DNA of 21,323 nucleotides from the IMG/VR virus record IMGVR_UViG_3300028569_000197, positions 1 through 21,323 of that record; one strand, 5' to 3'. The notes below the pieces were generated by a model. It was given only the letters and a program-made list of their open reading frames with translations. It did no database searches and was not told the DNA's origin. This stretch comes from a virus. Numbering within the stretch: the first letter of the stretch is position 1; each line of letters opens with the position of its first letter. This document shows positions 9,003 through 20,694 of this stretch, piece after piece. A program made the translations under genes and the position numbers.

Positions 9003-9737
9003 TCAGGCTCCCTGGATCGAGCCGGGCTCGATGGTGATGGTGACGGGATCGTTGGCGGCGGCGGCGCTGCTCAGCGCCAGGCCGATCACGCGGTTGTTGG
9101 CGCCGGCGGACGGCGCCGCCGCGACCACACGGCCCGTGCTGTCCACGGTCAGCAGCGCGCCTTCGGTGATGGCGGCCCCGGCAGTGGCCAGCGCCACCCC
9201 GTGATGCTGCACGAAGATGGTCGTCCCCGCGGCGCCGCCATTCAGCGCCACGCCGATCGACGCCTCGGTCGCGCCCGCCGCATGGACCACCTGGCCCGCC
9301 GTGGTGTGGAATTTGACGACACGGCTTGCCGTCACCGTGCCGCCCGCCGGGAATTGCGAAGACTGGCCGGTGATCGCGCCACGCATCAGCGCCACATCGA
9401 CGATATCGCCGGCCGCCCCCGCATCGAACAGCGCCATACCCAAAATCTGCTGGGTGGCGCCCGCCAGCGGCGCGGCGGCGATGGCGCGGCCGTCCGCGCC
9501 GGCGGTCAGCAGCGCGCCGACCGGGAAGGCACCGCCGGCCTCGACCGGCGCCACGCCCAGCACCTGGATGTCCACGCGCATTTGGCCCGCGGCGCCGCCG
9601 GGCTGCACGCACACCCCCATCAGCGCGCCGCCAGAGCCGGTGGCCTCCCGCACCGCGTTGGTGTTGACGTATTCGACCACATGCCGCTCAGCGATCGCGC
9701 CGCTGGCCTGGACGTTGCGCGTCAAGATATTGTTCAC
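9003..9737 (-). CDS. Capsid decoration (cement) protein, DUF2190-like, internally duplicated
   Basis: A protein of 244 residues rich in Gly, Ala and Val. The GTG start overlaps the upstream stop (GTGA) and has a GGAGG site six bases upstream. It is built of two similar halves. The clearest match is GALLTAGADGRAIAAAP (about 74-90) against GALLTVDSTGRVVAAAP (193-209). Both are followed by a copy of AGA-(T/N)-x-x-(I/V)-(L/I)-G-(M/L)-AL. Upstream of these, ALMGVCVQPGGAAG in half one resembles ASIGVALNGGAAG in half two. DUF2190 capsid cement proteins are normally about one such unit long. It would stabilise the capsid outer surface. Confidence 0.82.
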   Translation of the reverse strand: MNNILTRNVQASGAIAERHVVEYVNTNAVREATGSGGALMGVCVQPGGAAGQMRVDIQVLGVAPVEAGGAFPVGALLTAGADGRAIAAAPLAGATQQILGMALFDAGAAGDIVDVALMRGAITGQSSQFPAGGTVTASRVVKFHTTAGQVVHAAGATEASIGVALNGGAAGTTIFVQHHGVALATAGAAITEGALLTVDSTGRVVAAAPSAGANNRVIGLALSSAAAANDPVTITIEPGSIQGA

Positions 9738-10858
9738 GACTGACCTCCGGTCACGGCCCGCACGGCCTCGATGGTGGAAACCAGATTGCCCCGCGCCTTC
9801 TGGGCTTCCTGGAACGACGCGGCCGCGGCCGCGATTTCCTCGCCGCTGGCGCCCGCCGGCAGCGCGAACACGCCGCCCGCGCCCGCCACCTCGCCATAGG
9901 TCACCACGGTCGGGGCGGCGGCCAGCAGGGCGCGCAGCGCATCTCGCTGCGTCTCGGCGGGGCGGCCCTCAGCGAAGGCCACCGCATCACCGGCATCAAG
10001 GCGGGCCAGCAGCCCCGCCGCCAGCGGCGCATTGGCGGGCAGCAGCCGGCCTTCGGCCAGCAGACGCTCCAGGAAGGCGGCATCCTCGGCCGCGCGGGCA
10101 TGCGCCTCGCGCTCAGCAAAGGCAGCGGCCTGCCCGCGCAGCCGCGCCAGCTCAGCCTCCATCCCGGCGACCCGGGCTTCCTCCTGCTCTCGCCGCGCGC
10201 GCGCGGCATCGTCTTCGGTGGTGGCCACCCGGGGCATCTCCTGCGGTTCGGTGTAGGCGGGGCTGGGGGCGGGCGCTTCGCGCACGCGGTCCATGGCGGC
10301 CTGTTCGGCCAGCATCTCGATCTGATCGGCGGGCAGCGCCGCATCCGCGCGTTCCTGCCCGACCTGGCCGATCATCAGGTCGCGCAAGCCGCGGAACAGG
10401 CGCGCCACCAGGCTGAGCGACAGCCCATCCGCGAATTCCACCACACCGTCATCGGCGGCGGCGAATTGCACGGGCCGAAGCCCCTTCACGGCCGGCGGCT
10501 GCGCGCCGAGGAAGCCCACATGCCGCAGGTACCAGACGCCGGGTTTCGGGTTGGTGGCGGCATCGGGCCGATAGAAACTGGCGCTGACCTTCTGGTAGCG
10601 GCCTTCGCGAACCAGCTCGGCGAATGCGACATCCACCTGCCGCGCGCTGGCGCGCAGCCGCCCATCCACCACGTCCAGGCCGGACACCCAGCCATAGGCC
10701 GGCCCATCCGTTGCCGGATGGCCCACCACGATCGGCGCCTCATGCAGCGCCGGGTCATAGGCCGCGGCCATCGCTGCCAGATCGGCGTCGGTGAAGGCGA
10801 TGGTCGCGCCACCCATGTCGGTGTGGCGGCCGGGCCGGAAGATCTCGATCGGCTGCAC
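9734..10858 (-). CDS. Head maturation protease and scaffold (Mu gpI-like)
   Basis: A protein of 374 residues. The start is set at the GTG giving M-QPIEIFRPGRHTDMGG, because AGGAGA lies nine bases upstream; an earlier in-frame GTG 11 codons upstream lacks such a site and would include it. Protease-type blocks are IVVGHP (43-48), YQKVSASFY (88-96, with a candidate catalytic Ser) and LRHVGFLGAQPPAVKGL (111-127). These are characteristic of Mu I proteins (phage protease). Residues about 205-270 are Arg/Glu/Ala-rich and probably coiled-coil. This is the scaffold part that Mu makes separately as Z. Its C-terminal end overlaps the decoration gene. No convincing internal Z-type start was found. Confidence 0.88.
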   Translation of the reverse strand: MQPIEIFRPGRHTDMGGATIAFTDADLAAMAAAYDPALHEAPIVVGHPATDGPAYGWVSGLDVVDGRLRASARQVDVAFAELVREGRYQKVSASFYRPDAATNPKPGVWYLRHVGFLGAQPPAVKGLRPVQFAAADDGVVEFADGLSLSLVARLFRGLRDLMIGQVGQERADAALPADQIEMLAEQAAMDRVREAPAPSPAYTEPQEMPRVATTEDDAARARREQEEARVAGMEAELARLRGQAAAFAEREAHARAAEDAAFLERLLAEGRLLPANAPLAAGLLARLDAGDAVAFAEGRPAETQRDALRALLAAAPTVVTYGEVAGAGGVFALPAGASGEEIAAAAASFQEAQKARGNLVSTIEAVRAVTGGQS

Positions 10859-10873: not shown

Positions 10874-10932
10874 GGACGCTTGCGGTCGCACGTCCTGGGG
10901 GGCACACTATGCAGGCGGCGGGGTGGCCATCA

Positions 10933-10950
10933 GGCTGACAGCGTTCAGCC
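10933..10950 (-). promoter_or_regulatory. Inverted repeat GGCTGA-N6-TCAGCC, candidate late-activator site upstream of gene I
   Basis: A perfect 6-bp dyad with a 6-base centre. On the minus strand it is flanked by bases also shared with a second copy before lys at 18092-18109: GGGCTGAAC, three variable bases, GTCAGCCTG. It lies 75 bases before the gene I start and 21 bases upstream of a CATAGT -10-like box. That fits an activator overlapping a missing -35. Mu C binds a dyad in the equivalent place of late promoters. Confidence 0.65.
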
Positions 10951-11030
10951 CTACCCCCGGCGGAAACCGCGCCAGAAGCCCGCACAGGCCGCCCGGCCCG
11001 CCGCAGCCCCACCGCATCGGAAAGCCCGCC

Positions 11031-11064
11031 TTAGCCTGCTCTTAGTGTGCTCTTATCGCTCTTA
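11031..11064 (-). repeat. Four helically phased TAAG repeats
   Basis: On the minus strand, TAAGAGC occurs three times (at 11064-11058, 11055-11049 and 11044-11038). It is followed by a fourth, weaker TAAGGCG (11033-11027). The TAA elements start 9, 11 and 11 bases apart, about one helical turn, so they would face the same side of the DNA. The stretch is visibly richer in A+T than its surroundings. Role unknown: operator, upstream promoter element or gyrase/IHF-type site are possible. Confidence 0.5.
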
Positions 11065-11133
11065 TTCGCGTGCTGCGGGGACACGCGGTGCGCGGCGCTC
11101 GCACGGCGGCAGAGGCCGTGCTATCTCGGGCCC

Positions 11134-11172
11134 GCTGAGCGACTGCGGACGCCTGCATGGAATGCGCTCAGC
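11134..11172. repeat. 8-bp inverted repeat with 23-base centre
   Basis: GCTGAGCG (11134-11141) is exactly complementary to CGCTCAGC (11165-11172). It lies 32 bases after the stop of the minor head gene, so it could form a hairpin in the late transcript or be a binding site. There is no U-tract after it, so it is a poor intrinsic terminator. Confidence 0.4.
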
Positions 11173-11203
11173 CGGGGCGCGGTGGCGATCGCCGCCCCCC
11201 AAT

Positions 11204-12532
11204 CTACTCGCCTCGCCGATAGATCAGGATGCCCTGGCGCCTGCGCTCCAGTGCCCGGTCCATCGGCTCCTGGCTCGCCCGGTCGGCGCTGGGCTCATAG
11301 GCGGTCAGGCCCTCCCAGGCGCCGCCCACCAGCCGAAAAACCGCAAAGCCGCTGCGCAGCCGGTCGGCCGAGACGAAGCGGGCGATGTAGTGGCGAACCA
11401 GCCGCACGCGCGGCTTGCCGTCCCGGTCTTCGGTGGCCTCCAGCATCGCCCAAATCTCATCAGGGTCGCGGATCGCATCCGCTGCCAGCAGGATGGTCGG
11501 CGCGCGCCCGCTCTTGGTCACCTTCAGCGGTCCGCCGGGGAACGCCTCGAACAGCGACAGGCCGATCGCCAAGCTGCTGCCGACCACGTCGCGGAAGCCG
11601 GCCGGCTGTTCGGGTGTCGCGCCGAATTCGGCCAGGAACCGCCGGGCATACTCGGCCGGCGGCAGGTCGGGCGGCAGGATGCGGCCCGGGGCGACCGGCC
11701 TGGCATCGGGCAGCGGCGGCTTCGGCGAGGTGCCGCCCAGGATGCGCGGCCGGGCCAGATCATCGCCCCCGGTCATGTCCCGCAGCGTCACCAGCGGATG
11801 CTCACCCGCCGGGCGCGGCACCACCCCGTCCAGCGGACGCTGGCCCGGATTGTGGCCGAAGCCGGTGTCGATGCCCTGCGGCACGCGCACGGTCTGCGGC
11901 CCGCTGGCGGTGTTCACCTGGCGGTTCTCGAACGCCACCTCCGGCGCCTGGTCGGACACTGTCCAGCCTTCCCGCCGCAGCAGCCCGGGCGAGACCAGCA
12001 GCACCGTGCAGCGGCAGCCCCACCCGTTCTTCGGCGCATGGGTCCGCCACCAGCGATCGCTGGCGCGCAGCGTCACGCCGTTCCACGCCGCATGCTGGGG
12101 GCGCGTTGCCGCATCCATCGTGGCGACATAGCGCACCCAGAAATCGCGCCCGTCCCGCTCAGCCTCGGCGATCTGCCGCCATTTCCCGGCTTCCCGCGAT
12201 TGGCCGAGGTTGGTCTCGAAGATCACGCGGGCGCGCCAGCCGATCGGGCCGCGATAAGTCCAGCCCTCACGCGCCACGATGGCGGCGAACTGGCGCTGGA
12301 AGTGCCGCGCATCCCGGCCATCGGCCTGCGTCTCCAGCAGCGCCTGCCCCAGGGATTGCAACAGGCTTTCTTTCTTGGCCCCGGCGACCGCGAAGCCCCA
12401 ATTGTTGATCTCGCCCAGCGTGTCGGTCCAGCGATCGGACGGCAGCAGGGTGCCGATGCGCTGGCGCAGCGCTTCGGCCTGCTCGGTGAACGGCACGCCA
12501 CCATTCACGGCGCCGGCGATGCTGCCCGACAC
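11204..12532 (-). CDS. Minor head protein (Mu gpF / SPP1 gp7-like) with C-terminal PBECR2 nuclease-like domain
   Basis: A protein of 442 residues with a GTG start two bases after the portal stop. Residues about 70-180 form the gpF-like head morphogenesis domain: FQRQFAAIVAREGWTYRGP, RARVIFETNL, and HAPKNGWGCRCTVLLVS, which carries the typical CxC (173, 175). A proline-rich linker (about 265-290) leads to a second domain, 290-442, with RVRLVRHYIARF, FAVFRLVGGAWEGLTAYEP and a terminal RRRQGILIYR. This second domain matches the PBECR2 type (phage Barnase-EndoU-ColicinE5/D-RelE-like nuclease) as I recall it. The N-terminal part is known to sit near the portal and to be injected or cofactor-like. 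The nuclease role is an inference from fold family. Confidence 0.85.
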   Translation of the reverse strand: MSGSIAGAVNGGVPFTEQAEALRQRIGTLLPSDRWTDTLGEINNWGFAVAGAKKESLLQSLGQALLETQADGRDARHFQRQFAAIVAREGWTYRGPIGWRARVIFETNLGQSREAGKWRQIAEAERDGRDFWVRYVATMDAATRPQHAAWNGVTLRASDRWWRTHAPKNGWGCRCTVLLVSPGLLRREGWTVSDQAPEVAFENRQVNTASGPQTVRVPQGIDTGFGHNPGQRPLDGVVPRPAGEHPLVTLRDMTGGDDLARPRILGGTSPKPPLPDARPVAPGRILPPDLPPAEYARRFLAEFGATPEQPAGFRDVVGSSLAIGLSLFEAFPGGPLKVTKSGRAPTILLAADAIRDPDEIWAMLEATEDRDGKPRVRLVRHYIARFVSADRLRSGFAVFRLVGGAWEGLTAYEPSADRASQEPMDRALERRRQGILIYRRGE

Positions 12533-12534
12533 GG

Positions 12535-14073
12535 CTAGCGAAGCCCGTCTGCGATTTCCGCGCGCCCGGTCAGGTGCGCCACCACCAGCGCCTGCGCCAT
12601 CACTTCAGCCAGCCCATCCGTGGCCAGCGCGGGATAGAGGCGCAGCATGGCGTCCGCCACCTCCTGCAGGCTGCCGCCACGGTCGGCCACCTCATCCACC
12701 GCGCGCTTCAGCTGATCCAGCCAGGCCTCGGTGTGGCGCGCGGCGGCGGGGCCCAGCTGCTCGGCCAGCGCCACCTCGGGCACCATGGCGGCCTGGGCCG
12801 CCCGGCTGCGCCGCCCGGCTTCGGCGAACAGCGCGGGCAGGTCGGTTGGCGGCGGCGCGGCGGCACGCGGCTCGGCCTCCCAGCCCTCGCCATAGGTGTC
12901 GCGGATATACTCCTCGGTCGGGCGGTAGCCGAGCCGGCGCACCTTCTCGTCCCGGCCCGCGCGGGCCACCAGGTCCTCGGGCTCGCTCACGTCCCACCAG
13001 ATGCGCGGATAGGCCAGGCCGGACGCGGCATAGCCCGGCACGTTCAGATCGACGATCCATTGGACCAGGCCGCTGTTCAGCGTGTCCGACAGCAGGTCAG
13101 CATCGCCCTTGGTGATCTCCAGCCGGACCTCATTGTGGACCTGCCCCAGCGCGCGGCTGCCGGCGGCCCCGGCGCTGGTGGTCAGCGTCTGGCCCAGGAT
13201 CACCTTGCTGATGTCCTCATCCATGTAGCGGGCCAGGCTTTCATAGGCATCGAAGGTGCCGGCGCGCTTCGCCTCCACCAGCTCCACCACCATGCCGTCC
13301 GGCACGATCACGCCGGCCTCGCTGGCGATCGCCTGCAGGGCCGCCAGCAGCTTGTCCTGCTCGGCCTCCGAGGCGCCGGCGGGATAGCGGCCCAGCGCGG
13401 TGGGCTGGCCGAATTTCTCCAGCGCCGACAGCCAGAAGCCAATGCCCTGCCGCTTGAAATAGACCGGCCAGAACAGCCGGCTTCCCAGGCCGAGACCCCA
13501 CGGGTCCTCATACTTGGCGCCGAAGCGGTGCACCACGAACTTGCGGGGCGGCACCGGGTCGCCATCGGTGGGGCGCGCGCGGGACAGCAGCCGCAGCTCC
13601 GGCTCGCCCTCGGCCGGCACATGCCACGCGAAGCGCCGCGGGTCGCGGCCGCGCAGGTCGAACGGCATGATCTCGGCGCCGCGGCGTCGCCACATTACCT
13701 CCACCACCGCCAGACCCTTTAGCAGCGCATCCAGCAGCTTTTCGACGCCCTGGTTGAAGCGCGCACCGTCCAGCGCGCGCCTGACAAGGTCTCGCGCGGC
13801 TTCGGCGCGCGGGTCCTCGGCGCCGGCATCGACGGACCATTCGCGGCCGAGTAGCGCCATGCGACGCTTGCCCAACTCGCACCCCACCTGCGGGTCGCGC
13901 TCCAGCTCATCATACAGGGCCAGCCCCTTGCCGGCGCCGCGCGTGGTGAGGATGGGGTCCGAAAGCGGGAAGCGGTCCCCGTAGAACCAGCGGTTCGGGT
14001 CGCTGGCGATGCTGGCGATTTCGCGCGGCGGCGGGGCGGCGGGGCGGCGCTCCGGCTCGATGCTGTCGGACAT
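12535..14073 (-). CDS. Portal protein (DUF935, Mu gp29-like)
   Basis: A protein of 512 residues. The blocks DPILTTRGAGKGLALYDELE, DPQVGCELGKRRMALLGREW, then FNQGVEKLLDALLKGLAVVE and VILGQTLTTSAGAAGSRALG are typical of DUF935, the Mu portal family. The portal forms the dodecameric ring at the head vertex through which DNA is pumped by the terminase. A C-terminal helical tail (about 400-512) is variable in the family. The ATG lies three bases after the terminase stop. The gene order TerL - portal - gpF is that of Mu. Confidence 0.93.
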   Translation of the reverse strand: MSDSIEPERRPAAPPPREIASIASDPNRWFYGDRFPLSDPILTTRGAGKGLALYDELERDPQVGCELGKRRMALLGREWSVDAGAEDPRAEAARDLVRRALDGARFNQGVEKLLDALLKGLAVVEVMWRRRGAEIMPFDLRGRDPRRFAWHVPAEGEPELRLLSRARPTDGDPVPPRKFVVHRFGAKYEDPWGLGLGSRLFWPVYFKRQGIGFWLSALEKFGQPTALGRYPAGASEAEQDKLLAALQAIASEAGVIVPDGMVVELVEAKRAGTFDAYESLARYMDEDISKVILGQTLTTSAGAAGSRALGQVHNEVRLEITKGDADLLSDTLNSGLVQWIVDLNVPGYAASGLAYPRIWWDVSEPEDLVARAGRDEKVRRLGYRPTEEYIRDTYGEGWEAEPRAAAPPPTDLPALFAEAGRRSRAAQAAMVPEVALAEQLGPAAARHTEAWLDQLKRAVDEVADRGGSLQEVADAMLRLYPALATDGLAEVMAQALVVAHLTGRAEIADGLR

Positions 14074-14076
14074 GGG

Positions 14077-15645
14077 TCAGCCCTCCAGGGCGGCGCGAAA
14101 GCCGGCTGCCGCGCGGACGGCGGCGCGCGGCTGGCCGAGTGATCGGAATGCGATGTCGGCGGGGGCGGTCAGGGTTGCGCGGTGCGCCAGCAGCAGCGCC
14201 ACCAGGCTGTCGCCATGCCGCTGTTCGCCGTCGCTGCCATTGTAGCGGGCATCGCCCATGGTGGGCAGGCCATTGACCAGGACGGCGGCGCGGTGGTCGG
14301 CGATGATGTCCTCATCCGCCGGCAGGATCAGCGACCGATCTTCCAGCGCGGCGCGATATTCCGGGAACGCCGCCGCGTACCAGGCCACCGTCGCCTTGAC
14401 GCATTCCACGCGCGCCGCGCCGAAGCGCTGCTGCGCGGCCTCAGCGTGGGACTGGCCATTGCCGCGCGCATCCAGCGCGCCGCGCCAGCGCGTCAGGCCC
14501 TCCAGCAGCTCGAACAGCACGAATTGCTGCACGTCGAAGGGGATGCGCCGCAGCTCCAGCACGAAGGCGGTGCGCCAGGTGGCGGGTCCGGTTTCCTCCA
14601 GCACCGCGATGTCCGACAGGTCGCCATCGCGGCCGAAATCCTGGCCGAATGTGTGCCGGCGGCTGGGGTCGAGGCCGCGCAGAAGGGGGCGCACGTGTAT
14701 ATCGAACCACACCCGCGCCTGCGCCATGCGCGTATCGTCCAGGTACCAGCCCTCGCCCTGCGACCAGCGCACCACCGGGATGCCGGGCTCGGCCGCGCGG
14801 CGGGCCAGGGCGGTCGGGATATAGGCGCCGGAGGAGCGGCGCGGGATCGCCTCCAGCTCCTCATCGCGGGCTTCGTGGCGCGGGCCATAGGCGCGGTGGA
14901 TGCGGTCCAGCCATTCGGCCTTGGCGGCCGGCGTGGGCTGCCAGCCGCGCATCAGGCAGACGCGCTCATAAAGGCCGTTCGCCACGGCGGCGCTGAAGGG
15001 GATGGTGTGGATGCTGTAGTCATACAGGCCCTTGGCCGTATCCAGGATCATCGAATTAAACGGGTTGTCCTGGCCATTGTGGGTGCTGATCACGCGGATG
15101 CGGCCGCCCCAGATCAGCAGCGCGTTCACCGCATCCAGCACCAGGCCCACATCCTTGTGGAATGCTGCCTCGTCGATCACCACCACGCCCTGGAGACCGC
15201 GGATATTGGCCGGCCGGCTGGACAGCGCGACCACCTGGAAGCCGCTGGCAAAGCGCACCCGGTAGGCCGCGATGTGCTTGCTGTCCCCGTCTTCGCGCTG
15301 ATCCTCGAACAGGAATTCCTCGACCGCCAGCAGCTCCTTCGCCACCACGCGCGCGAAATGGGCCACGTAGCGGATGAACTCCAGGCCCTTTTCCTTGGTG
15401 TCGCCGATGTAGAACACATTGTCGCCGCCGCCGCTGCGCGATGTGCTGGCGATGATCGTGTCGTCCAGCGCCTCGGCATAGGTGATGCCGGTGCGGCGCC
15501 CCTTGGCGCACAGCTTCATGGGCGAGGCATCTTCCAGCCAGGCGCGCTGATGCGCCATCAGGATGCCCTCGGCCAGCGGATCATGCGCGGCGGGCAGGGC
15601 CGATGGGGCAAGCAGCCCATCAAGCTCGGCGGATGACGCGCCCAC
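14077..15645 (-). CDS. Terminase large subunit (Mu gp28-like)
   Basis: A protein of 522 residues starting at a GTG three bases after the small terminase stop. ATPase signals are visible: a Walker A variant KGRRTGIT (48-55), Walker B VVVIDEAAF (154-162, D158/E159), and a coupling-type motif STHNG (187-191). The nuclease part begins at TFGQDFGRDGDLSDIAVLEE (about 332-351) with acidic residues D336, D340 and D342 as candidates for metal binding. Further conserved sequence is WYAAAFPEYRAALEDRSLIL. It packages DNA by the Mu headful mechanism together with the DUF3486 protein. Confidence 0.94.
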   Translation of the reverse strand: MGASSAELDGLLAPSALPAAHDPLAEGILMAHQRAWLEDASPMKLCAKGRRTGITYAEALDDTIIASTSRSGGGDNVFYIGDTKEKGLEFIRYVAHFARVVAKELLAVEEFLFEDQREDGDSKHIAAYRVRFASGFQVVALSSRPANIRGLQGVVVIDEAAFHKDVGLVLDAVNALLIWGGRIRVISTHNGQDNPFNSMILDTAKGLYDYSIHTIPFSAAVANGLYERVCLMRGWQPTPAAKAEWLDRIHRAYGPRHEARDEELEAIPRRSSGAYIPTALARRAAEPGIPVVRWSQGEGWYLDDTRMAQARVWFDIHVRPLLRGLDPSRRHTFGQDFGRDGDLSDIAVLEETGPATWRTAFVLELRRIPFDVQQFVLFELLEGLTRWRGALDARGNGQSHAEAAQQRFGAARVECVKATVAWYAAAFPEYRAALEDRSLILPADEDIIADHRAAVLVNGLPTMGDARYNGSDGEQRHGDSLVALLLAHRATLTAPADIAFRSLGQPRAAVRAAAGFRAALEG

Positions 15646-15648
15646 CGA

Positions 15649-16197
15649 TCAGGCCTGGGGCAAGGGGGCGGCCGGGCGGAGCCCCAGCACGTCGCGGCGG
15701 ATTTGGGCGGCGCGCTCGGCCGACAGGCCGGCTTCGGTCGCGCTGCGTTCGGCCTGGTCGGCGGCATCGGCCAGCGCGGCATCGCGGGCCTTTTTCTCCA
15801 GCTCCATCTTCAGCTTGTCGGTGCGGGCCAGGTCGCCGATGGCGCGCGCCAGCATGGCGATTTCCTTGGCGTCGGCGCCGGTGTCCAGCATTTCCATCTG
15901 GGTGCGGTGGGCGATCACCTTGAGTAGCTCGCCCAGCATGCGGCCGATATCGCCATCCGGGTCGGCCTTCAGCTGCTTCATCCAGTCGCCAGCAATGGCC
16001 TGGCTTTCGCGGAATTCTTCCAGCCGCTGCTCCATCGACTTCTTGTAGCGGCCGATTGCGCTGCGGCTGACATCGCCGCCCAGGCCACGGACCATCTGCA
16101 CGATATCGTCGATCGTGGCGCGGCCTTCCGTGATGGCGGCGTCGATCGCCGCCTTCAGGCGCGGGTCGATGATGGCGATGGAGGATTTGCGCGGCAT
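15649..16197 (-). CDS. DUF3486 small terminase (Mu gp27-like)
   Basis: A protein of 182 residues. MPRKSSIAIIDPRLKAAIDA, then GLGGDVSRSAIGRYKKSMEQ (about 39-58) with a helix-turn-helix-like segment, and a long charged helix RTDKLKMELEKKARDAALAD are typical of DUF3486, the DNA-recognition subunit of Mu-like terminases. The C-terminus AAQIRRDVLGL also fits. It lies one base after the winged-helix gene and is followed by the large subunit. The assignment as small terminase is established family knowledge. Confidence 0.9.
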   Translation of the reverse strand: MPRKSSIAIIDPRLKAAIDAAITEGRATIDDIVQMVRGLGGDVSRSAIGRYKKSMEQRLEEFRESQAIAGDWMKQLKADPDGDIGRMLGELLKVIAHRTQMEMLDTGADAKEIAMLARAIGDLARTDKLKMELEKKARDAALADAADQAERSATEAGLSAERAAQIRRDVLGLRPAAPLPQA

Positions 16198-16198
16198 G

Positions 16199-16495
16199 TC
16201 AGCCGCCCGGCCGCGGGCGCTTCACGCCGGGCACCACGGCGCGGCCCTCCGCCGCATCCTGGCCGCGGCTGGTGAGCGTGGCCACCACCAGGCCGTGCGT
16301 CTCCCGCGTGGCCAGCAGCCCCTGTTCCGCCAGCCAGGCCAGGTCCACCCGGATCTGGTCGCTGCTGGGGCTGTGGCCGAAATCGGGCAACGCCGCGTGC
16401 AGCAGCGCTTCATTGCCGGCGCCCGCCGGGGATGCCAGCAGCAGCAGCAGGATGGACAGCCGCCGGTCCTGCGCCAGCAGATCGGAATAGGCCAT
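16199..16495 (-). CDS. Small winged-helix phage protein (Mu gp26-like, VpaChn25_0724 type)
   Basis: A protein of 98 residues. MAYSDLLAQDRRLSILLLLL, then GNEALLHAALPDFGHSPSSD and VDLAWLAEQGLLATRE (about 50-65), have the helix-turn-helix plus wing layout of the small phage family placed just before DUF3486 in Mu-like phages. It ends with a basic, Gly/Pro-rich tail (VPGVKRPRPGG). The ATG overlaps the DUF2730 stop as TGATG. A DNA-binding role, possibly with the terminase, is inferred. Confidence 0.8.
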   Translation of the reverse strand: MAYSDLLAQDRRLSILLLLLASPAGAGNEALLHAALPDFGHSPSSDQIRVDLAWLAEQGLLATRETHGLVVATLTSRGQDAAEGRAVVPGVKRPRPGG

Positions 16496-16869
16496 CAGCC
16501 ACCCCGCTTCAGATGTTCGTCGATCAATTCCAGTCGGCGGCCGGTGGCGTTCACGGTTTTCTCCACCCCCGTCAGCGCGACGCCAAGCGCCCGCACTTCC
16601 CCGCGCAGATCGGCCACGACCAGTGTCAGGCTGTGCATCTGGTCGGCGGTGGGCAGGTGCCGCATGGCTGTCTCGATGCTGGCGATCCGCGCTTCATGCG
16701 TGTCCACCCGCTCATCCAGGGCCCGCAGCCCGGGCGCGGAGGACAGGGCGCTGATGCGCTGTTCGACCGTGGCCAGGATGTGCGCGCGCAGCGCGGCACC
16801 CAGCACGGCGAACAGCAAGCCCAGGCCGAACACGACCAGGACCTGATATTGGGTCAGGTCGATGCTCAT
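16495..16869 (-). CDS. DUF2730 membrane-anchored coiled-coil protein (Mu gp25-like)
   Basis: A protein of 124 residues. One membrane segment, about residues 8-29 (YQVLVVFGLGLLFAVLGAAL), is followed by a heptad-rich region (ALDERVDTHEARIASIETAM and later LRGEVRALGVALTGVEKTVN). This layout and the position before the winged-helix and DUF3486 genes fit DUF2730. In Mu the equivalent region encodes lysis accessory (spanin-like) functions, so a part in lysis is possible but not shown. The ATG overlaps the upstream stop by four bases. Confidence 0.82.
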   Translation of the reverse strand: MSIDLTQYQVLVVFGLGLLFAVLGAALRAHILATVEQRISALSSAPGLRALDERVDTHEARIASIETAMRHLPTADQMHSLTLVVADLRGEVRALGVALTGVEKTVNATGRRLELIDEHLKRGG

Positions 16870-17027
16870 CGCTCGGCATCGTCGCGCTTTGCGGCCGGCG
16901 GCGCGGCATCGAACACCGCGCCGCGGCGCGTGGGGGCCGGCGGCGGCAGGACGGCGCGGGCGCGCGCGATCAGCGCCTGGCGTTCGCGCTCGGCCATGTC
17001 GGCCGCCCAGTCACCGCTGTCGGCCAT
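16866..17027 (-). CDS. 53-residue protein, possibly a TraR/DksA-like relic without zinc finger
   Basis: MADSGDWAADMAERERQALI followed by ARARAVLPPPAP and a charged end (KRDDAER). The first 25 residues resemble the N-terminal helix of the small TraR/DksA-type proteins coded at this place in many Mu-like phages. The C4 zinc finger that should follow is absent: there is no cysteine in the protein. It starts three bases after the holin-like stop and overlaps DUF2730 by an ATGA junction, which argues that it is translated. The relationship is tentative. Confidence 0.6.
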   Translation of the reverse strand: MADSGDWAADMAERERQALIARARAVLPPPAPTRRGAVFDAAPPAAKRDDAER

Positions 17028-17030
17028 GGC

Positions 17031-17378
17031 TCAGCCGCCCACGATCGGCGGGCGCGGCAGGCGCGCGCGGATCAGCTGGTCCAGGCCCGCCGTGTCGATC
17101 CCCAGCCGCGCCAGCGCGTCCGGCACGCGGGTCTGCACATAGTCGCGGGCGATCTCGGCCACGATGGACCCACCGGTGGGCAGCGCGCTGCGCGGCTGGC
17201 GCGCGGCCTCGGCGCGGGCATATTCCACCGCGCGATCCAGCGCGGCGGTCAGATATTGCCGCACCTCGCTGTCGGCGCGGAGCTTCAGCCAATCCGCCAG
17301 CCGGCGGATGGCCAGCCCGGCCAGGCTGAGCACCAGGGTGGCGGCGAATTCCAGCATCGCGCCGGTGATGATTTCCAT
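17031..17378 (-). CDS. Holin-like membrane protein
   Basis: A protein of 115 residues. Residues about 5-25 (TGAMLEFAATLVLSLAGLAI) form one membrane segment, followed by an amphipathic, charged region and a C-terminal YVQTRVPDALARLGIDTAGL. The layout is that of LLH-type phage holins: one N-terminal membrane helix and a long cytoplasmic helix ending in a VPDAL-x-x-LG motif. It lies directly after the endolysin gene, 12 bases downstream. An AGAGGG ribosome-binding site lies upstream of its ATG. The role in releasing the endolysin is inferred from place and topology. Confidence 0.65.
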   Translation of the reverse strand: MEIITGAMLEFAATLVLSLAGLAIRRLADWLKLRADSEVRQYLTAALDRAVEYARAEAARQPRSALPTGGSIVAEIARDYVQTRVPDALARLGIDTAGLDQLIRARLPRPPIVGG

Positions 17379-17390
17379 CTCAGGGGCCCT

Positions 17391-18056
17391 CTAGGCTTGG
17401 GTGAGAAGCGTGAAAGCGCGGTCATAGAGGCCCGCCACCGGCGCCAGCCCGACCAGCCCGCCATTGACGCGCTGGCGCACCGCCTGGATGTCGGCGGTCT
17501 CGGCAATCTCGGTGCAGCCGGCCCAGCGCCACCAGGCGGCGGCGGATTGCGCGGCCATGTCGGGCAGCGCCAGATTTTCCGGGTGGTCCAGCAGCGGCTG
17601 GCCGGTGATCATGGCCAGCCGCGCGTAATTGTCGCGGCCGGTCACCTGGAGCAGGCCGCGGCCGATATAGCGCCACGCATCGCCGGGGTGGATATTGCCC
17701 ATGCGCCCGCCATAGACGCGCTCGGCCAGCGCCTCGGGGTTCCAGGCGACGCCCTCGGTGCTGGGCAGGTCGGGGAAGCGCCGCGGCCACACCTGCATCA
17801 GGCGGCGGGGCGAATAGCGCAGGCTCTCGACCAGCCGCACATAGCCGGCGGTTTCATGCAGCGTGTTGGCCAGGAACGCGGCCAGGGCGCGCGGGGTGGT
17901 GATGCCGTATTCAGCGCAGAGGGGGGCCAGCCGGGCGGCCCAGGCGGCGGGCTCGGTTGCGCCCAGGCGGCGCAGCAGGTCGGCGGTGATGGTGGGGCCG
18001 GAGACGGGCGCCGCCGGCGACGATTGGGGATTGCGCGGATCGAGGGGCAGCGACAT
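17391..18056 (-). CDS. Endolysin, glycoside hydrolase family 19 (chitinase-like)
   Basis: A protein of 221 residues. The GH19 core is clear: FLANTLHETAGYVRLVESLR (catalytic Glu expected in the HET motif), then AERVYGGRMGN, and RYIGRGLLQVTGRDNYARLA, the conserved glycan-binding GRG-x-x-Q-x-TGR-x-NY block. The enzyme would cleave peptidoglycan at the end of infection. No signal peptide is seen, so it needs the holin to reach the wall. The ATG chosen (MSLPLDPRNP) has no visible Shine-Dalgarno sequence. The upstream in-frame TTG lies inside the terminator stem and is rejected. The gene opens the late operon, like Mu lys. Confidence 0.92.
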   Translation of the reverse strand: MSLPLDPRNPQSSPAAPVSGPTITADLLRRLGATEPAAWAARLAPLCAEYGITTPRALAAFLANTLHETAGYVRLVESLRYSPRRLMQVWPRRFPDLPSTEGVAWNPEALAERVYGGRMGNIHPGDAWRYIGRGLLQVTGRDNYARLAMITGQPLLDHPENLALPDMAAQSAAAWWRWAGCTEIAETADIQAVRQRVNGGLVGLAPVAGLYDRAFTLLTQA

Positions 18057-18091
18057 GCTGCGACGGTGCCGCAGCGGGCCAGCAATCGGCA

Positions 18092-18109
18092 GGCTGACGC
18101 GGTTCAGCC
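18092..18109 (-). promoter_or_regulatory. Inverted repeat GGCTGA-N6-TCAGCC, candidate late-activator site upstream of lys
   Basis: A second copy of the dyad found before gene I; only the three central bases differ over 21 positions. It lies 36 bases before the endolysin ATG and just after a terminator, the place of the Mu late promoter Plys. No good -10 box is visible after it, so exact promoter architecture is open. Confidence 0.65.
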
Positions 18110-18117
18110 CGGGCGCC

Positions 18118-18141
18118 GAAGGGGGCCCGAAGGCCCCCTTC
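18118..18141 (-). terminator. Strong hairpin terminator with TTCG tetraloop
   Basis: On the minus strand GAAGGGGGCC, loop TTCG, GGCCCCCTTC: a perfect 10-bp stem starting eight bases after the stop of the 74-residue gene. UUCG loops are unusually stable. There is no U-run on the minus strand, so termination may be incomplete or Rho-aided. It separates the regulatory cassette from the late operon. Confidence 0.7.
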
Positions 18142-18492: not shown

Positions 18493-18978
18493 CTACGACC
18501 GGATGCGGCCCTGCGACTGCTGGTGCCGGCTGTCGGCGGCATCCAGCGCATCGAGCCGGGCGATGGCATCGCGGATGGCCGGCTGGGCCAGCACCGCCCG
18601 CGCATCCGGCAGGCGGGCCAGTGCATCCGGCGCGGGGTGCGACACCGGCGCCCGACCCTCCAACAGGTCAAGCACCCAGCGGCGGAAGCGCGCCGCCGGC
18701 TCGGTCTTCGCAAAGAAGCAGAGCATCCGGCATCCCCGGAGCGAGAAAACTCGCACCTGCTGCGAGCCCCCCGCCGTCTGCTCGACCATCAGGCGCGTTT
18801 CGTCGGAGGTGAAATCCTCGGCGTGACGGCTGATGATGTTGTGCAAACCACGCTCGCTGGCGAAACCAAGGGGGGCCACAATCTGTGTGACCCTCAGCCA
18901 GATTTGCCCGTCCATCTGGATGCCATCCAGCCGCGTGCCGCCGTAGTTCAGGGCGGTGCTAATCATGTCATTCGGCAT
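18493..18978 (-). CDS. Antirepressor-like protein (BRO-N / P22_AR_N type), ending at an in-frame amber codon
   Basis: A protein of 161 residues with an AGGAG site nine bases before its ATG. The N-terminal domain, about 15-110, reads GIQMDGQIWLRVTQIVAPLG, then LHNIISRHAEDFTSDETRLM and VFSLRGCRMLCFFAKTEPAA with RFRRWVLDLLEG. This is the pattern of phage antirepressor or BRO N-terminal domains, which bind DNA or repressors and act in induction. The C-terminal part is helical (DALARLPDARAVLAQPAIRD). Translation stops at TAG (18495-18493), but the same frame stays open for 41 more codons to a TGA that overlaps the next gene. The protein may therefore be truncated or made longer by readthrough. Confidence 0.7.
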   Translation of the reverse strand: MPNDMISTALNYGGTRLDGIQMDGQIWLRVTQIVAPLGFASERGLHNIISRHAEDFTSDETRLMVEQTAGGSQQVRVFSLRGCRMLCFFAKTEPAARFRRWVLDLLEGRAPVSHPAPDALARLPDARAVLAQPAIRDAIARLDALDAADSRHQQSQGRIRS

Positions 18979-19226: not shown

Positions 19227-19811
19227 TCAAGCATGGTGCGGCGCGCCCAGGGCACGCCGGCCGACATGGCAATCCACGCAAAGTATCCGCAGGTTGGATA
19301 GGTCGAACGCCTTAGCGGGCGCCACCAGCCGGCTGACGATATGCGTTGCGGTCAGGCGCGCCTCATCCTCCGGCACGGCGCCGCACGAGCAGCAGCGCCG
19401 CCCATACAGATGCAGCGCCTCCCACCGCGTGCGCCGCCATTCAGGCGTTCGGAAAAACCTGTCGGCAGGCAGGTTGGCCAGGACCATGAGATGCTCGGCG
19501 CGCCCTGCGGTGCGGGAAACCGGCTTGGAAAGTGAAGCCAGCACATCGCACTCGATCTTCTTGGCCAGCTTCTTCGCTTGGCTGCGTTGCTCATGGCGTC
19601 GCTGCGCTGCCAGTCCTCGCTCGACCCTTTGCTGCGCGTATACCAGGGCGTGCATGATGCTTGCCTGGAACTGCTTCTGATCCACACGCGCCATGCGGCG
19701 CAGCCGTTCCATGATGATGCGCTTTTCACGGGCGCGGATGCCTGTGGCGTCGGGGTAGCCGAACTGCCTAGCGAGCGCGTCGAAGTCGCCAATGAGGTCG
19801 TCTTCTTCCAT
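19227..19811 (-). CDS. HNH endonuclease
   Basis: A protein of 194 residues from the ATG (MEEDDLIGDF); a GTG one codon earlier is possible. A GGAG site lies eight bases upstream of the ATG. The first 110 residues are basic and helical with no recognised domain. The C-terminal HNH module has a CxxC (140/143) in GRRCCSCGAVPEDE. It continues with the catalytic-type His157 in ATHIVSRL, Asn173 in DLSNLRILC, the second CxxC (178/181) and H182 in CVDCHVG. Such nucleases nick DNA, and in phages serve homing or packaging. Here it lies in the regulatory cassette, not beside the terminase, so homing or an accessory role seems more likely. Confidence 0.8.
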   Translation of the reverse strand: MEEDDLIGDFDALARQFGYPDATGIRAREKRIIMERLRRMARVDQKQFQASIMHALVYAQQRVERGLAAQRRHEQRSQAKKLAKKIECDVLASLSKPVSRTAGRAEHLMVLANLPADRFFRTPEWRRTRWEALHLYGRRCCSCGAVPEDEARLTATHIVSRLVAPAKAFDLSNLRILCVDCHVGRRALGAPHHA

Positions 19812-19876
19812 CACAGTCGCTCCGCCATCCGGCCGTGCCGGGTCAAGGGGGTTGTTTTCGGGGCGGCGGTTGTGCA

Positions 19877-20286: not shown

Positions 20287-20694
20287 TCACGCCGCATCCC
20301 CCCGCCGAAACAGGTCGGTCTGGCGCGCGGCTTCCTCCGCCCGCAGGCGCGCCTTCCACGCATGCACCGTCCGCACATGCAGCCCCGTTGCAGCGGCGAT
20401 CTGGTCGGCGGTGCGATGCTCGGCGGTCAGCCCGCGGATCAGCGCCGCCATCTGCGCGCGGTCCCGGCTGGGCCCCTTGGGCACGGTAATCCGTTCCATC
20501 CTGTCGTGCCGATCCACCAGCCACGCCAGAACGGCCACGCCCATGACCTCCGCCACCGGATGCTCCGGCTGCGCCGAAACCGGCAGCCGCAAATAGCGCC
20601 CCCCGAACTGCTCAGCGAACCGCAGCGCGGTGCGCAGGTCGAACCTCTCCGACATTTCGCGCAGCAGGTTCGGCAGCCAGGGGCGCGGTTCCAT
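20287..20694 (-). CDS. Mor/C-family transcription activator
   Basis: A protein of 135 residues. TALRFAEQFGGRYLRLP (22-38) with the GG turn, HPVAEVMG (45-52) and MERITVPKG (66-74) match the dimerisation half of Mor/C proteins. The helix-turn-helix follows at about 94-118 (RTADQIAAATGLHVRTVHAW). In Mu, Mor activates the middle promoter and C activates the late promoters, by binding a dyad that overlaps the -35 region. This gene lies upstream of lys in transcription order, so it is the natural candidate for the two dyads in this window. Its ATG overlaps the upstream stop (TGATG). It is tail-to-tail with the plus-strand gene with only two bases between the stops. Confidence 0.82.
   Translation of the reverse strand: MEPRPWLPNLLREMSERFDLRTALRFAEQFGGRYLRLPVSAQPEHPVAEVMGVAVLAWLVDRHDRMERITVPKGPSRDRAQMAALIRGLTAEHRTADQIAAATGLHVRTVHAWKARLRAEEAARQTDLFRRGDAA

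Follow-up and report, generated by a model that had tools for sequence, protein, structure and literature searches.

Paired dyads before lys and gene I as candidate operators of a Mor/C-like late activator

The window, that is, the whole stretch of DNA analysed here, comprises 21,323 nucleotides of a Mu-like phage and corresponds to positions 1 to 21,323 of the IMG/VR virus record IMGVR_UViG_3300028569_000197. Three genes on its minus strand are central to this analysis. A Mor/C-like late activator of 135 amino acids is encoded at 20287..20694 and matches phrog_836 ('late transcriptional activator', E=1.2e-17); the match spans residues 89-215 of the activator's longer frame. The endolysin gene, lys, occupies 17391..18056 (phrog_181; its longer frame gives E=1.6e-63), and gene I, which encodes the head maturation protease, lies at 9734..10858 (phrog_976, E=7.6e-111). 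The start of gene I is likely the GTG at 10858, behind an AGGAG, with the GTG at 10891 as the alternative; this choice draws on the sequence and on the protease of the related phage L004. Two further genes lie between the activator gene and lys: an antirepressor-like (Ant/Bro-N) gene at 18493-18978 and an HNH endonuclease gene at 19227-19814. L004 carries homologues of both. A GC-rich hairpin with a 10-bp stem and a TTCG loop (18118..18141, minus strand, from the sequence) is found at the end of the operon that precedes lys, just upstream of the lys operator described below. It has no T run. The hairpin is kept upstream of the lys operator in L003 and L130, with different stem bases.

Both late genes are preceded by the same dyad, here treated as a predicted operator. 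On the minus strand, the site before lys (18092..18109) is GGCTGA-ACCGCG-TCAGCC, lying in GGGCTGAAC-CGC-GTCAGCCTG, and the site before gene I (10933..10950) is GGCTGA-ACGCTG-TCAGCC, lying in GGGCTGAAC-GCT-GTCAGCCTG. An earlier sequence-only reading of this DNA had reported two minus-strand sites, identical at 18 of 21 positions, before the endolysin and gene I, and had assigned the gene at 20287-20694 to the Mor/C family. Both sites were re-read at the same coordinates, the phrog_181 and phrog_976 genes follow the dyads, and the activator gene is real by its phrog_836 match. That reading had also proposed a scan for the dyad. The 21,323-base record contains exactly two copies of the core GGCTGA-N6-TCAGCC and no further site at one mismatch or fewer. 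Dinucleotide shuffles searched at the same tolerance held a mean of 0.10 copies, and two copies were present in 0 of 100. With up to three mismatches, the window gives 32 matches against 19 expected, mostly chance.

Portal, protease and activator served as queries to collect relatives. Even where protein identity is only 55-65%, relatives have the dyad immediately in front of lys and of gene I. Both genes are preceded by it in L003 and L005, whose portal identity is 90% and 55%, respectively, as well as in L160, L210, L212 and L217; the L125/L130 phage has it before lys and, with one mismatch, before the protease gene. It is also found before the protease gene in L051, L062, L136 and L141, and a half-degenerate dyad marks both places in L004. 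The L125 and L127/L130 contigs are filed under an Opitutaceae (Verrucomicrobiota) metagenome-assembled genome and are possibly mis-binned; their phage is close to that of the window. Among sites the arms are constant and the six central bases variable, so that the alignment of relatives suggested in the earlier reading finds the arms kept, the centre not, and the two places the same.

The statement that no third copy exists holds within the record, but three relatives do have one. Each of L144, L210 and L160 has it in the tail region, at a distance of roughly 13-15 kb downstream of gene I, and a frame starts shortly after it. The window record extends only about 10.9 kb beyond gene I in this direction, which would put a third copy at such a distance out of sight; judged from the relatives, the regulon probably includes a third operator outside the record. 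Two other copies of the dyad were dismissed as chance: that at G047:8597 overlaps the start of Mor, and that at G051:30158 lies inside a frame, without promoter-like context.

The arrangement extends well beyond the window's own clade. A set of 65 phages, each with a Mor-like gene, was searched with a pair caller whose sole criteria were dyad symmetry and the similarity of the two regions. It called a strong lys/I pair (score of 3 or less) in 49% of them, against 8.8% with partners swapped from phage to phage, a null that is raised by those phages whose arms are genuinely shared; roughly half of the 65 gave no strong pair. Distant transposable phages have a matched lys/I pair with other arms in a constant register, NNN-X-GA-N6-TC-X'-NNN. 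By lineage, the arms are GGCTGA, AGCCGA/GGCCGA, GGGTGA, CCCTGA, AGCGGA, CCCGGA and AGGGGA. In a control over all 16 dinucleotides at the inner arm position, GA was found in 28/28 strong pairs. Isolates with known hosts (RcapMu, RcWaterboi and B23) follow the NNNXGA plan. The claim of a new specificity is refined in its scope: the pattern is family-wide, with at least six types of arms, and the window has one of them. Some operators escaped the caller and were read by eye; these phages stand outside the half-site count given below. They comprise L272/L274 and L275/L278, missed by a search for N6 only because their spacers have 5 or 7 bases; L144, whose lys site is far from the activator gene; and L004, L139 and L189/L191/L142, whose sites are asymmetric. 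The 5- and 7-base spacers in L272, L274, L275 and L278 belong to late operators before lys and/or before the protease gene and possibly reflect an altered dimer geometry. Where the activator gene directly precedes the protease gene (L317, L325, L326, L342), both regions contain the same site, and these phages were therefore excluded as pairs. KS10 yielded no clear operator, only a weak pair of score 6.

A chance repeat in a GC-rich genome would be one account of the two dyads. The bare 16-base pattern is not rare in IMG/VR, with at least 119 matches, many of them in unrelated contigs. Because the pattern is common in a large database, part of the evidence rests on position. It is the same positions that are occupied in diverged relatives, with GA in every strong pair, and none of the shuffles yielded two copies, which makes coincidence extremely unlikely.

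Promoter geometry was examined by aligning 62 sites from 31 phages on the dyad centre. An A occurs at +33.5 in 45/62 sites and a T at +37.5 likewise in 45/62, which defines a TAnnnT -10-like box from +32.5 to +37.5. If transcription is assumed to start seven bases past the last T, the dyad centre falls near -44. In the window the box of the I promoter is TAGTGT (10904..10909, minus strand; TAATTT in L003). That of the lys promoter, placed by the register of the 62 sites, is CACCGT (18063..18068, minus strand), a weak box in which the key A and T fit and nothing else does. Counted from the dyad start, the first ATG with an open frame of at least 35 codons has an index of 52-55 in 23/62 sites, which places it at the predicted transcription start. 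Just one first ATG falls at index 56-67, and most others lie further on, with room for a ribosome-binding site in a leader. Many lys and I start codons thus coincide with the predicted start, and the messages concerned are probably leaderless. The window's lys ATG at 18056 has index 53, and by this geometry the lys message probably begins at its AUG. Leaderless late messages, if real, constitute a testable prediction about translation.

The same geometry bears on whether the dyads act as RNA hairpins, either terminators or leader structures, rather than as protein-binding DNA. Arms of 6 bp around a 6-base spacer can pair in RNA, and in the RcapMu group a TTTT follows the dyad, as in an intrinsic terminator. 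No T run follows it in the window or its clade, however, the lys gap yields no terminator call, and no Rfam family was matched. A dyad upstream of the -10-like box would not be transcribed from its own promoter, and a hairpin leaves unexplained why arm bases covary with a residue of the activator's recognition helix, as described below. Hairpin function is accordingly judged highly improbable. In RcapMu (L129) the operators lie in the gaps 13945-14017, before lys, and 22171-22439, before the protease gene, with TTTT after both; given this run, the element there may combine a terminator of the upstream operon with an activator site.

The candidate activator is the only one found in the window phage, which shows no Mor/C pair. 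Its AlphaFold2 model (pLDDT 90) has helices at 96-103 and 107-134, giving a helix-turn-helix at 96-134, and the predicted recognition helix (107-134) carries R108 and H111. The window protein has no match to the Pfam Mor family (PF08765), which 17/20 relatives match; two clade members score 22.3 and 23.4, the cut-off being 24.9. By hhalign, window residues 53-118 align with Mu Mor with a probability of 80, and the value for Mu C is 54. Structural comparison with VIA-align gives a Z of 6.8 to Mu C (9l0x) over residues 73-127 only, and other helix-turn-helix proteins do equally well, so that a fold search of the model by itself does not single out Mor/C. When the window Mor sequence was queried directly against IMG/VR no match was returned; a query with an alignment found relatives.

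Residue 111 was compared with the arm base X in 31 phages with strong or clear pairs. The score-4 pairs of L169, L147 and L180 were retained in this count as their runner-up was clearly worse. The residue fits the base in 123/124 half-sites. T is found at X with His (28/28), Tyr (8/8), Trp (12/12) and Phe (4/4), C with Glu (12/12), and G with Arg (55/56) and Lys (4/4). Among the 135 columns, X is explained fully by residue 111 alone, and the runner-up reaches 69%; the grouping of aromatic residues with His in this test was picked after the pattern had been seen, and ungrouped, each residue goes with one base. Near single-residue contrasts point the same way. Over helix residues 105-118, the sole difference between L212 and L204/L216 is at 111 (His/Glu), and their operators carry T and C; B23 and L157 differ within residues 105-113 only at 111 (Trp/Arg), and theirs carry T and G. 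L144, with Glu, has exactly two copies of GGCCGA-N6-TCGGCC, of which one precedes a gene lying downstream of the activator and the other a tail-fibre-like frame, as well as a one-mismatch copy before gene I. R108, near 111 on the predicted helix, is conserved in these activators, and 0/6 phages without this Arg gave a GA pair (Fisher p=0.027, uncorrected for ancestry). The exception is L317, with Phe and a CGGA dyad situated about 80 bases ahead of the protease start (3910). L175/L150, with Tyr, have C in one half-site. With the helix columns left out of the tree, at least five changes of X and six of the residue class are counted; these changes are too few for a phylogenetically corrected test, and sign tests on independent pairs fall short of significance, the resolved pairs having the same direction in nearly every draw. 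The pattern suggests that one amino acid of Mor-like activators decides one operator base. That residue 111 sets X throughout the Arg-bearing Mor/C branch, with the invariant Arg reading GA and many late messages leaderless, is a reading we consider likely.

This covariation ties the dyad to the Mor-like activator, a point that matters because another protein might bind there (a phage repressor, the antirepressor module or a host factor) while the Mor-like protein acts elsewhere. The dyads are generic operators in form, and the Bro-N/Ant-like protein encoded at 18493-18978 is at hand in the window. Against this, only the recognition-helix residue 111 among the 135 activator columns accounts fully for the arm base, the lys site starts no more than about 75 bases past the activator gene in L137, L204, L212, L216, RcapMu and several others, and the placement of the sites agrees with class II activation as in Mu. 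Binding of the dyads by a different protein is thus very unlikely.

The dyads are, in all likelihood, operators of a single Mor/C-like activator that would drive the lys and gene I promoters. The late regulon put forward in the sequence-only reading gains support from the conservation of the sites, the spacing of the -10-like box and the covariation at residue 111, all of them read from sequence. From these we infer that an activator dimer, with one subunit on each arm, would bind at about -44, substituting for a -35 element, and host RNA polymerase would be activated at both late promoters, with transcription starting at the predicted positions. The first promoter would serve lys together with packaging and head genes, and the second gene I together with capsid and tail genes. 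As for individual contacts, the G in the arm's GA, which never varies, is probably read by the equally invariant Arg108, and the adjacent base probably by residue 111, a helical turn further along (in the window, His with T). To our knowledge, experimentally known Mor/C operators seem to be limited to Mu. No Mor/C operators outside Mu are described in the literature searched, which left subscription journals mostly uncovered, and a prior description is possible. If the interpretation holds, sequence suffices to identify the late operators of many transposable phages, and an activator of previously unknown targets gains a defined regulon. If the code at residue 111 is true, such operators would be predictable from the activator sequence, and nature would provide a residue-to-base series, including near single-residue contrasts, for testing DNA recognition.

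The closest characterized paradigm is Mu. Mu Mor recognizes two 5-bp arms that flank a 6-bp spacer; the site is centred at -43.5 and replaces a -35 element, and the middle promoter Pm has a -10 hexamer and no -35 (PMC4390567, PMC4287176). The window resembles this system in its two short arms, its 6-bp spacer, a dyad centre near -44 and a homologous activator (phrog_836). It differs in its arms, GGCTGA/TCAGCC, in that Mu Mor has Asn at the position of Arg108, and in showing one activator rather than a Mor/C pair. Mu C has activator sites before lys and gene I (PMC4287176, PMC4461284), and the window dyads, like sites of the Plys, PI, PP and Pmom group, likewise stand before lys and gene I. Solved complexes of Mu C are available in the PDB (9l0x, 9vw8); it has Pro at the position of Arg108, and a dyad finder detected no shared GA-type dyad pair in the lys and I gaps of Mu. 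The Rhodobacter phages RcapMu and RcWaterboi have matched dyads, CCCGGA-N6-TCCGGG, before lys and the protease gene, in the same register and on the same NNNXGA plan. They differ from the window in having Arg at 111, G at X and TTTT after the dyad, and the Rhodobacter phage record has no operators annotated. Alteromonadaceae phage B23 carries CCCTGA-N6-TCAGGC before the first gene of its lysis region and before I. Its residue 111 is Trp and its arms begin with CCC, where those of the window have GGC; both of its start codons lie at the predicted transcription start.
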